Under the pieces are notes generated by a model. It saw nothing but the letters and a program-made list of their open reading frames with translations, was not told the origin of the DNA and made no database searches. 46,095 nt of DNA from a virus. A program made the position numbers and the translations under genes. Below are positions 35,615 through 38,184 of this stretch, piece by piece. The stretch spans positions 1-46,095 of the IMG/VR virus record IMGVR_UViG_3300044971_001141. One strand, written 5' to 3'. How positions within the stretch are numbered: the first letter of the stretch is position 1; every line of letters begins with the position of its first letter.

Positions 35615-35860
35615 ATGAAACAATACATCGCCATAGACACGCTGACGGGTTACCTTGATAAAGGCAAAGTTTATTTCGGTCATGAAACGGCCACGGGAGT
35701 GAGCATCGAGGGTAATGTTTACCCGCGTTCTTTGTTCAAGCGTAAAATCGGACGGCAACGGGGCAACGGGGAGAAACGGGGCTATCAGGTATATGGCAAG
35801 TATTCTAATCGTGAAAAGGTCAGGGAGTATGCACGACAACTGGATAATGAAACACGGTAG
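35615..35860 (+). CDS. Small conserved protein before the methylase (81 aa)
   Basis: ATG 35615 (MKQYIAIDTLTGYLDKGKVY) is preferred over a TTG at 35606. Contains FGHETATGVSIEGNVYPRSL and a very basic C-terminal half (KRKIGRQRGNGEKRGY). Overlaps the methylase start by 14 bases, so the two are coupled. Unknown function; basic character suggests nucleic acid binding. Confidence 0.55.
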   Translation: MKQYIAIDTLTGYLDKGKVYFGHETATGVSIEGNVYPRSLFKRKIGRQRGNGEKRGYQVYGKYSNREKVREYARQLDNETR

Positions 35861-36986
35861 TCTATTTTCCGGGATTGGGGGCTTTGACTTGGCAGCCGAA
35901 TGGATGGGATGGGATAATATCTTTCATTGCGAGTGGAATCCGTTTGGGCAGAAAGTCCTTAAACATTATTGGCCTAAAGCAATATCATATCATGACATCA
36001 CAAAAACAGACTTTACTATTCACCGAGGAAACATTGACATCCTCACGGGAGGTTTTCCATGTCAGCCCTACTCAATGGCAGGAAAACGACTCGGAAAAGA
36101 TGATGAACGCCATTTGTGGCCAGAAATGCTTAGAGCAATACGGGAAATTCAGCCGCGTTGGGTTGTGGGCGAAAACGTTCTCGGCCTTGTTAATTGGAAT
36201 GGAGGGTTGGTATTCGAGGAGGTGCAGGCTGACTTGGAAGCTGAAGGGTACGAAGTACAACCGTATGTACTTCCAGCTGTTTCCGTCAACGCTCCCCACA
36301 GAAGAGATAGGGTTTGGTTTGTTGCCTACGCCAACCGCAATACAACGGGAACATCCGGAGAGAGTAGAAGCATTAAAAGAAGCCGGAGCAACATCAATGT
36401 TCAGCAGAGCGAACGGGGAAGCAAGACCGAACTCAATAATAGACCATTTGCAGTTCCACGGGATGTTACCAACCCCAACGGCGTTCGATTACAACAGCGC
36501 AAGAACACCGGAGAAATGGGAGGAGGACAAACAGAAATGGGCGGACAAGGGAGTGAATCTACAAATGCCATTGAAACAAATGGCAAGGTTGCAAATGTTA
36601 CCCACCCCCACCGCAATGGACTCAACCAACGCAACGGCAACGATGAAGAGCAGCCAAGTCAAGGAGGGTTCAATGCACTCGGTAACGCTGACACGGGCAA
36701 TGAGTATGGGGATGCTCCCGACACCTACTTGCCAGGATGCAAAGCAAAAGGAGAACAGTCCATCGCAACAACACAAAGTACAGGAATTGGCTATCAGAGT
36801 GGCGGGTGGGACGGGTTCCCAACTCAATCCCCAATTTGTGGCGGAGATGATGGGCTTCCCACCGAATTGGACGGAATTACCTTTTCTAAATGGAGAAACG
36901 AATCAATCAAAGCCGCAGGAAACGCCATAGTCCCGCAAGTTGTTTATCAAATTTTCAAAGCAATAGAGGAATATGACCAACTATAA
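35847..36986 (+). CDS. DNA C5-cytosine methyltransferase, copy B (complete)
   Basis: 379 aa from ATG 35847 (MKHGSLFSGIGGFDLAAEWM, motif I). Motif IV GGFPCQPYS, VI VVGENV, VIII NAPHRRDRVWF and IX/X KAAGNAIVPQVVYQIF are all present, so the enzyme should be active. About 190 residues between VIII and IX are low-complexity and shaped by the overprinted frame. It is the complete counterpart of copy A (offset 36,012 bases in the N-terminal part) and differs mainly in this middle region. No restriction partner is seen, so it is probably an anti-restriction methylase. Confidence 0.92.
   Translation: MKHGSLFSGIGGFDLAAEWMGWDNIFHCEWNPFGQKVLKHYWPKAISYHDITKTDFTIHRGNIDILTGGFPCQPYSMAGKRLGKDDERHLWPEMLRAIREIQPRWVVGENVLGLVNWNGGLVFEEVQADLEAEGYEVQPYVLPAVSVNAPHRRDRVWFVAYANRNTTGTSGESRSIKRSRSNINVQQSERGSKTELNNRPFAVPRDVTNPNGVRLQQRKNTGEMGGGQTEMGGQGSESTNAIETNGKVANVTHPHRNGLNQRNGNDEEQPSQGGFNALGNADTGNEYGDAPDTYLPGCKAKGEQSIATTQSTGIGYQSGGWDGFPTQSPICGGDDGLPTELDGITFSKWRNESIKAAGNAIVPQVVYQIFKAIEEYDQL
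35992..36930 (+). CDS. Overprinted inner-frame protein, copy B (LPTP-repeat, 312 aa)
   Basis: Complete ORF from ATG 35992 (MTSQKQTLLFTEETLTSSRE) to 36930, wholly inside the methylase gene and one base ahead of its frame. Blocks: GWYSRRCRLTWKLKGTKYNR; modules opening with LLPTPTA, MLPTPTA, MLPTPTAMD or MLPTPTC; ending LNPQFVAEMMGFPPNWTELP. Versus copy A it has one extra module (FDYNSARTPEKWEEDKQKW...), with all size changes multiples of three, so both frames stay open. No biochemical function is known. It may act with the methylase. Confidence 0.78.
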   Translation: MTSQKQTLLFTEETLTSSREVFHVSPTQWQENDSEKMMNAICGQKCLEQYGKFSRVGLWAKTFSALLIGMEGWYSRRCRLTWKLKGTKYNRMYFQLFPSTLPTEEIGFGLLPTPTAIQREHPERVEALKEAGATSMFSRANGEARPNSIIDHLQFHGMLPTPTAFDYNSARTPEKWEEDKQKWADKGVNLQMPLKQMARLQMLPTPTAMDSTNATATMKSSQVKEGSMHSVTLTRAMSMGMLPTPTCQDAKQKENSPSQQHKVQELAIRVAGGTGSQLNPQFVAEMMGFPPNWTELPFLNGETNQSKPQETP

Positions 36987-37100
36987 TGAACCGTTCACCC
37001 ATTCCGAGGTAGCGGAGTTTATCACGGAGTGCATCTGGCTGGGGCTGGATGTACCTACGGAGGATGAACTGGTGGAATTTTGCCACATCGGACGGGAATA
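36013..37100. repeat. Homologous block shared with positions 1-1060
   Basis: Position 1 aligns to 36013. About 11 differences in the first 360 bases, more in the middle of the methylase, then high identity again through the stop and the following small gene until about 1050/37100, after which sequences diverge. The copies are related but clearly not identical, so this is not a simple terminal duplication. Confidence 0.85.
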
Positions 37101-37137
37101 CGCCAAGTTAATTTTAAAACACTTAGAAAATGTTTGA
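36973..37137 (+). CDS. Small conserved phage protein, copy B (54 aa)
   Basis: Begins MTNYNEPFTHSEVAEFITEC, near-identical to 928-1110 up to HIGREYAK, then ends LILKHLENV. The start overlaps the methylase stop by 14 bases as in unit 1. Together with the methylase it forms the homologous block shared by the two units. Confidence 0.7.
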   Translation: MTNYNEPFTHSEVAEFITECIWLGLDVPTEDELVEFCHIGREYAKLILKHLENV

Positions 37138-37339
37138 CATAAACTTATATCATCTGGAAACCTGCGAAACCAGAAAAATTAAAATGCCATTTGTCCCTAA
37201 CATAGGTCATAGAATTTATTTAGGCGATTTGTTTAAAGAGTTTGCCATGAATGACAATGAACACATGGCCATCGTAAAAGTAGTTGAATACGATATTATG
37301 ATGAATGAGATATTAGTAATAGTTGAAACACAAATGTGA
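37130..37339 (+). CDS. Hypothetical protein (69 aa)
   Basis: Begins MFDINLYHLETCETRKIKMP and ends MMNEILVIVETQM; small alpha/beta. Overlaps the preceding stop by 8 bases. It replaces the unrelated 59-residue gene found at this place in unit 1. Confidence 0.55.
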   Translation: MFDINLYHLETCETRKIKMPFVPNIGHRIYLGDLFKEFAMNDNEHMAIVKVVEYDIMMNEILVIVETQM

Positions 37340-37350
37340 AATAAATCACT

Positions 37351-37358
37351 TAAATTTG
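37351..37358 (+). promoter_or_regulatory. -7 promoter box before unit 2 packaging operon
   Basis: TAAATTTG 7 bases before the ATG at 37366. A TTG at 37323-37325 is 25 bases upstream, slightly too far for a canonical -33 box. Equivalent in place to the box at 1260. Confidence 0.5.
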
Positions 37359-37365
37359 CAACAAT

Positions 37366-37572
37366 ATGGCAACTTACATTAACAAAATCAGTTTAAAGAA
37401 AAAACAATTTGGCACTCAGTTTACTGGCTTATCAGAAGACTTTATAGCTCAAATTAAAGAACACACCAACGAAAAAGGGTACTTTAACTTTGAAATCAAA
37501 GAACGGCGTGAACCTTCCGAAAAAGGCGAAACGCACTACATAGTTGTAAGCGAATGGAAACCGAAAGCATGA
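37366..37572 (+). CDS. Conserved small phage protein, unit 2 (68 aa)
   Basis: Homologue of 1272-1478: same length, with SLKK near the start, EKGYFNFEIKERREPSEKGE and a final W-KPKA. Strong divergence in the N-terminal half with strict conservation of the EKGYxNFEIKER block suggests that block is the functional core. Confidence 0.7.
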   Translation: MATYINKISLKKKQFGTQFTGLSEDFIAQIKEHTNEKGYFNFEIKERREPSEKGETHYIVVSEWKPKA

Positions 37573-37751
37573 AACACGCTGACGTACTATATTGGATCGA
37601 AACGTATCACTACACCTACGGGTATATACCAACACTTGTGGCGATTATGCACGGGTGTAAAATCGGCTACTCATGGGCTACCGTATGCCGTAACGATTAC
37701 GAAAAATCACTTGTAGCTAAATGCCTTAACGATGCCCCTGCCAAAACGTAA
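37569..37751 (+). CDS. Small helix-turn-helix-like protein, unit 2 (60 aa)
   Basis: ATG 37569 gives an ATGA overlap with the preceding gene. Reads VLYWIETYHYTYGYIPTLVA then IGYSWATVCRNDYEKS, almost the same as 1475-1651. High conservation points to a function needed by both phages despite different terminases. Confidence 0.65.
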   Translation: MKHADVLYWIETYHYTYGYIPTLVAIMHGCKIGYSWATVCRNDYEKSLVAKCLNDAPAKT

Positions 37752-38184
37752 CCCATCCGAAACAAAGGTGGATTTCATGCAGCGGTGCATGAATGACCGT
37801 ACCATGCGCAGCGAGTTTCCGGATGAGGAACAACGCTACGCGGTCTGCCAGCACAACGCCGTGATGGGTGCCGTCAATCAAACCTATACCGATTACCCGC
37901 AGGCTGCAACTGCTAATGCCAAACGTGCGTTAAAGTATCGGGATGAAAGCGGCAACCCGAAAGGATGCGGAACGGCGGTGGGGTGGACACGGGCAAACCA
38001 ACTCGCCAAACGGGAACCGATAAGCCGCGAAACCATAGGCCGCATGGCAGCGTTCGACAGGCATCGGCAAAATAAGGACGTGCCTTATGAGGACGGATGC
38101 GGCGGTCTGATGTGGGATGCCTGGGGCGGGACTGAGGGCATTGAATGGGCGCAAAAAAAACTTAAAGAAATAGACGGGGAATGA
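37732..38184 (+). CDS. Conserved phage protein upstream of terminase, unit 2 (150 aa)
   Basis: Homologue of 1627-2061. Blocks TDYPQAATANAKRALKYRDE, GWTRANQLAKREPISRETIG, NKDVPYEDGCGGL and WDAWGGTEGIEWA are all retained. It overlaps both neighbours. Its conservation next to two unrelated terminase pairs argues that it does not contact the terminase in a sequence-specific way. Confidence 0.75.
   Translation: MPLPKRNPSETKVDFMQRCMNDRTMRSEFPDEEQRYAVCQHNAVMGAVNQTYTDYPQAATANAKRALKYRDESGNPKGCGTAVGWTRANQLAKREPISRETIGRMAAFDRHRQNKDVPYEDGCGGLMWDAWGGTEGIEWAQKKLKEIDGE

Follow-up and report, generated by a model that had tools for sequence, protein, structure and literature searches.

Introduction

M.EcoHK31I and M.EaeI (YGGCCR) are C5 cytosine methyltransferases composed of two polypeptides. 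The small polypeptide of M.EcoHK31I is about 176 codons long, and Lee et al. are said to have described in 1995 that its gene lies inside the large gene in another frame. Among two-polypeptide C5 methyltransferases M.EcoHK31I has been studied experimentally: motifs I–VIII and X reside in the large subunit and motif IX in the small subunit only, and the target-recognition region (TRD) was placed in the large subunit by prediction, not by assay (PMC3404938). M.AquI is split inside the variable region, and its small subunit has both motif IX and motif X (PMC3404938).

Here we examined an IMG/VR virus record of 46,095 bases (the window, meaning the whole stretch of DNA analysed), which carries two pairs of a methylase ORF (alpha) and an inner ORF (beta). 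Very probably each of the two frames encodes one subunit of a single C5 cytosine methyltransferase, the expression of beta, the assembly of the subunits, and the activity, target and role of the enzyme being inferred. No paper describing the nested arrangement as a phage-wide class was found in the open literature that was searched, subscription papers and REBASE notes being outside the scope of that search.

Results

The initial annotation of the window, made from the letters alone, had claimed a second gene of about 310 codons inside a cytosine methylase gene, and the reading frames bear this out; exact coordinates, length and frame are listed in Table 1. The methylase ORF can start at 35847 or 35853, and a further upstream ORF start is present at 35715. 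As originally stated, the inner ORF runs one base ahead of the methylase frame in both copies, including the pair at the start of the window (copy A); the copies differ in size by 33 nt in total, which agrees with the multiples of three stated at the outset. Positions 1–2039 and 36013–38150 resemble each other over the methylase blocks and part of the downstream genes (95% over the first 470 nt, 67–91% beyond), and the large ORFs past the two repeat blocks diverge (23% identity). The contig starts within the repeat, and two related phages may have been joined in it.

Table 1. Positions of the two reading frames, their motifs and the second copy in the window.
Feature	Coordinates	Strand	Support
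Alpha, C5 cytosine methyltransferase frame (motifs I–VIII and X)	35847..36986	+	PF00145 E 2.6e-45; phrog_363 E 1.9e-72
Beta, nested +1-frame gene, 312 codons, ATG 35992, stop at 36930	35992..36930	+	phrog_1008 E 1.7e-25
Alpha motif IV (GGFPCQPY, catalytic Cys)	36048..36071	+	translation; invariant in alignment A2
Alpha motif VIII (APHRRDRV)	36291..36314	+	translation; alignment A2
Beta LPTP-repeat region, candidate target-recognition region, four LPTPT modules	36319..36820	+	NN/SN, pLDDT, hhalign
Beta motif IX equivalent, putative (LNPQFVAEMMGFPPNW)	36823..36870	+	position and register vs single-chain and canonical enzymes
Alpha motif X (GNAIVPQ)	36918..36938	+	translation; GNA..P invariant in alignment A2
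Second alpha copy, 5' end cut by contig start	3..941	+	ORF; profile match
Second beta copy, 5' end cut by contig start	1..864	+	ORF; profile match

Alpha passes the motif test for a C5 methyltransferase (PF00145) with motifs I–VIII, including PCQ and ENV, and the PF00145 criterion for motif X is met in the same frame. Its AF2 model matched M.HhaI (Z 21.8, rmsd 2.9, 206 residues) and was confident over residues 1–160 and the C-terminal helices, with a disordered linker between them (pLDDT mostly 35–50). The requirement of motif IX and TRD in the same chain was not met: alpha is without both, and it is the +1 frame that has the motif IX-like block as well as the variable region under selection; this frame enters the first LPTP of beta at alpha motif VIII. 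In a second homologue survey no methylase frame matched the canonical motif IX pattern, and nearly all inner frames ended with L[NS]PxxVExxMGFPxxW. The missing motif IX lowers only the claim of a single-chain enzyme, because two-chain C5 enzymes are known.

When nested beta was aligned by hhalign with single-chain actinophage methylases, it matched columns 274–437, after the catalytic domain (probability 97.1, E = 7.6e-11), with scores of 81–118 versus a maximum of ~21 for column-shuffled targets. The last 50 beta columns alone scored 59–63 against the single-chain enzymes, and alpha aligned only to their columns 18–200, the catalytic part. The beta tail was also in register with 'LTPREC-RLQGFP' of four canonical enzymes (score 23.5 versus a shuffled maximum of 13.6), although by statistics alone the match of beta to canonical motif IX is weak (probability 15%). 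The C-terminal 140 columns of the single-chain enzymes gave no alignment to the canonical enzymes, and an hmmsearch of the single-chain enzymes against PDB covered only their catalytic part. What ties beta to canonical motif IX is therefore its register and position together with a score that is only modest; with this reservation, motif IX is assigned to the inner frame. Motif X lies in the methylase frame.

Beta had no match in PDB by single-sequence or profile search and none in Pfam, a Pfam search with 58 betas returning chance matches only. AF2 modelled beta alone poorly (pLDDT 63, pTM 0.31), and this low-confidence model gave no PDB fold match. The missing PDB sequence and fold matches carry little information either way. 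Such lack of Pfam and PDB matches would suit a gene overprinted de novo for a job unrelated to methylation (e.g. anti-restriction or host takeover), as would the N-terminal half of beta, over motifs IV–VIII, which has no counterpart in the single-chain enzymes. We nevertheless regard an unrelated job as improbable. Judged by the alignments, the C-terminal half of beta corresponds to the motif VIII-to-X region of single-chain C5 methylases, so that only the N-terminal half looks truly overprinted; motif IX is missing from alpha; and beta always accompanied alpha in the sampled loci, the two being fused or adjacent in actinophages. PHROG 1008, labelled 'DNA methyltransferase', includes the window inner frame, and the phage proteins of the form LPTP...GFPxxWTEL, described at the outset as usually unexplained, appear to be this beta subunit.

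Beta and alpha were found together in Bacteroidota, Bacillota, Pseudomonadota (E. coli prophages, Salmonella, Citrobacter, Enterobacter), cyanobacteria and others. The nested form with motif X in alpha accounted for 73 of 85 bacterial or plasmid loci, and stand-alone beta without alpha was seen in none of the 85 such loci with beta. The E. coli ECCTRSRTH03 prophage (L426:2486-3655) is given in RefSeq as two incomplete cytosine methyltransferase pseudogene pieces; both of its frames read through.

The same pieces occur in other arrangements. The whole enzyme is in one chain in some actinophages (PHappiness 71, Derg 4, Baddon 4, Aggie 53) and in two adjacent or partly overlapping ORFs in the actinobacteriophages Samora, Catalina, Juno112 and Shida. 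In the actinophage split form alpha stops after motif VIII, and the +1-frame beta comprises the LPTP repeats, motif IX and motif X; in two Bacillota split forms (L370, L396) alpha likewise stops after motif VIII and beta has IX and X. A tree of the catalytic domain separated the nested class from an actinobacterial class in which fused and split forms are intermixed, and placed the two Bacillota split forms within the nested class. The arrangement has therefore changed several times; whether the single chain or the nested form came first is not settled by the tree. In three related loci (L310, L318, L354) the motif-IX block is in the catalytic frame and motif X alone is in the +2 frame, with an extra LLEWLMGY block in the +1 frame of L310 and L318; from the positions of the motifs, these appear to be another arrangement of the same pieces. 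In two Streptococcus phages (L422:979-2286, L424:1078-2031) the C5 methylase is canonical and its own frame includes motif IX, yet a +1-frame ORF of ~142 codons with an early MTSQQYQ...LF is present as well. Annotated alpha of Mycobacterium phage GigiOuiOui (gene 65, L408:909-1379) departs from its relatives after GTRSG, as a frameshift upstream of the ENV motif would produce.

Programmed ribosomal frameshifting could in principle join the frames into one chain rather than two subunits, and the second ORF of most split actinophage forms does lie in the +1 frame, in some with an overlap of 30–50 nt only. We consider such joining quite unlikely, as the nested form needs two shifts, one to gain motif IX and another to return to motif X, the N-terminal half of beta shows its own selection (region O1), and beta has its own ATG, often with a Shine-Dalgarno-like site. 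Such sites preceded 78 of 110 beta ATGs versus 225 of 1,497 other ATGs in alpha; the sequences are related, hence these are not independent counts. No Shine-Dalgarno-like site was present before the window beta ATG. Independent initiation of beta at its own ATG is favoured by these sites, pending evidence beyond sequence.

Substitution rates in the two frames were estimated by an OLGenie-like count on 62 disjoint homologue pairs, values below 1 indicating constraint. This check by homologue alignment and frame-specific rates had been set beforehand. In the non-overlapping 5' control the phantom +1 frame gave 0.81 and 0.74, which represents the background. Over catalytic motifs IV–VIII both frames were constrained (inner 0.59 and 0.41, methylase 0.16). 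In the variable middle inner NN/NS was 0.58 and the other inner ratio 0.47, and alpha was near neutral (NN/SN 0.92, 0.85–1.0). In the motif-IX region inner NN/NS was 0.49 (0.40–0.59) and SN/SS 0.30 (0.22–0.41), with alpha NN/SN at 0.83. The methylase frame dominates over the catalytic motifs, and the inner frame is constrained in the middle and in the motif-IX region, with the methylase frame there near neutral. A large part of the methylase reading frame is thus merely carried along by the inner gene.

The initial annotation had inferred selection on the inner gene, with different stretches constrained by different frames, from the two copies in the window; the rates above uphold this, and its base-by-base comparison was reproduced. 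At 396, 402, 420, 432, 444, 450, 456 and 459 every substitution leaves the inner protein unchanged and replaces a methylase residue (G>S, W>R, F>L, S>P, S>P, N>D, A>T and H>N). Substitutions in the LNP block are mainly inner-silent (795, 798, 801, 813, 816, 819, 822, 849), and at 128, 129, 131, 284 and 288 it is the methylase that is unaffected.

The openness of the inner frame was surveyed in homologues picked by the methylase protein alone, with the window, Paenibacillus phage Jacopo and Lacticaseibacillus phage R23.9 as queries. The best 80 per query were kept, giving 200 distinct intact methylases that are not a random sample of all C5 methylases, and the +1 core was tested between nt 280 and a point 15 codons short of motif X. 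It was free of stops in 186 of the 200. In 13 of the remaining 14 no stop came earlier than the end of the inner motif block, and the stop of L197 remained unresolved. The +2 frame had a mean of 12.4 stops in the 200 methylases and was clear in none. An intact methylase with a broken inner frame, named at the outset as a potential refutation, thus had no clear instance in 199 of 200 homologues, and L197 stands as a possible case. A full-length +1 ORF was retained in 0 of 20,000 synonymous recodings of the window methylase with the codon usage of the window, and in 7 of 20,000 permutations of the methylase's own codons; the +2 frame of the window methylase has 21 stops, as chance predicts in the recoding test. 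We judge the conservation across 200 homologues to be the stronger evidence. That the inner ORF is a mere by-product of methylase codon usage and amino-acid composition is hardly credible given these recoding counts, the homologue survey and inner constraint where the methylase frame is near neutral, even though with permuted codons the +1 frame stays fairly open (mean longest run of 125 codons). The inner ORF is a real gene, with wide conservation and selection acting on it; its expression is inferred.

A 6-nt insertion, consisting of a stop and one codon, was found in five loci exactly between P and C of GGFPCQP in the methylase frame (L091:3207-3230, L175:1735-1758, L213:1732-1755, L332, L369). 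A collection scan returned 58 pattern matches, 49 of them in a methylase context (viral loci among L446–L503), making 54 loci in 27 clusters at 60% identity. The insertion, TRA-YYN, is thus recurrent in motif IV of nested-class methylases. A companion collection scan, with slightly longer 3' context, found no case of the same insertion without a stop, and elsewhere in the motif there was one doubtful case. The codon before the stop was CCG, CCT or CCA; CCC, a common codon in intact genes, did not occur there at all. The codon after the stop was always YYN. Past the stop the methylase frame remained under purifying selection (NN/SN 0.29, 0.26–0.33), and motif X was reached in 43 of the 54 loci. 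The insertion is absent from the window.

These features suggest, as a hypothesis, a natural programmed ribosomal stop-hop. The peptidyl-tRNA-Pro would leave CCN, skip the stop and re-pair with YYN; under this proposal nine bases would yield one proline, and GGFPCQP would be restored. Stop-hops of this kind are on record for synthetic constructs (review PMC5009743). The insertions could also stem from recurrent inactivation or be scars left by a mobile element.

Discussion

The best reading of the locus is a nested alpha/beta C5 methyltransferase that would work like M.EcoHK31I, with target recognition and motif IX predicted in beta. Alpha would form the catalytic domain (motifs I–VIII), responsible for catalysis and cofactor binding, and would be closed by its motif X helix, the part between VIII and X serving only as a linker. 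Beta, translated from its own internal ATG, would supply what alpha is without, the TRD region of LPTP modules and motif IX. Once assembled, the two would act as a methyltransferase marking the phage's DNA, presumably as protection from restriction by the host. Demonstrated by the analysis are the absence of motif IX and of a selected TRD from alpha and the match of beta to the TRD/motif-IX region of single-chain enzymes. A broader proposition remains tentative, and we would not yet bet on it: that many phage C5 methylases are obligate heterodimers whose specificity lies wholly in the overprinted subunit, the LPTP repeats being swappable recognition modules. If so, gaining or losing a module would change target recognition for beta and, for alpha, no more than the length of the linker.

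The usual annotation lists alpha alone; sometimes each frame is entered as a methylase of its own, and one E. coli prophage has the locus down as an incomplete pseudogene. If the two-subunit reading is true, the annotation of a class of phage 'orphan' methylases has missed half of the enzyme, and alpha cloned alone would be expected to be inactive. The locus further provides a strong case, from nature, of two reading frames that overlap over a long stretch of one strand, with their constraints falling on different parts of the gene. With fused, adjacent and nested forms at hand, how such an overlap arose can be tested.

Both frames are contained in PHROG families labelled DNA methyltransferase, alpha in PHROG 363 and beta in PHROG 1008; the labels say nothing of the overlap or of PHROG 1008 being a subunit. 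The single-chain actinophage methylases (PHappiness 71, Derg 4, Baddon 4) share with the window the catalytic domain and the LxxxFxEWMMG motif-IX block, and several share the LPTP repeats of beta, but they use one frame and one chain, unlike the window. M.AquI resembles the window in keeping the catalytic and recognition parts on separate chains; its division is similar to that of the actinophage and L370/L396 split forms, and not to that of the window. M.EcoHK31I serves as the precedent, with two polypeptides, motifs I–VIII and X in the large one and IX in the small one. The window agrees with the M.EcoHK31I type in two respects: the gene for the small subunit is nested, in a different frame, within that for the large one, and motif IX is confined to the small subunit. 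It differs in a third, a TRD in the large subunit: selection and the alpha model place the window recognition region in beta, whereas that of M.EcoHK31I is predicted in the large subunit. Window beta is also longer, has repeated LPTP modules and is phage-borne. Because the middle of alpha is near neutral and disordered in the model, our claim is that the window enzyme works like M.EcoHK31I, not that it is a homologue.
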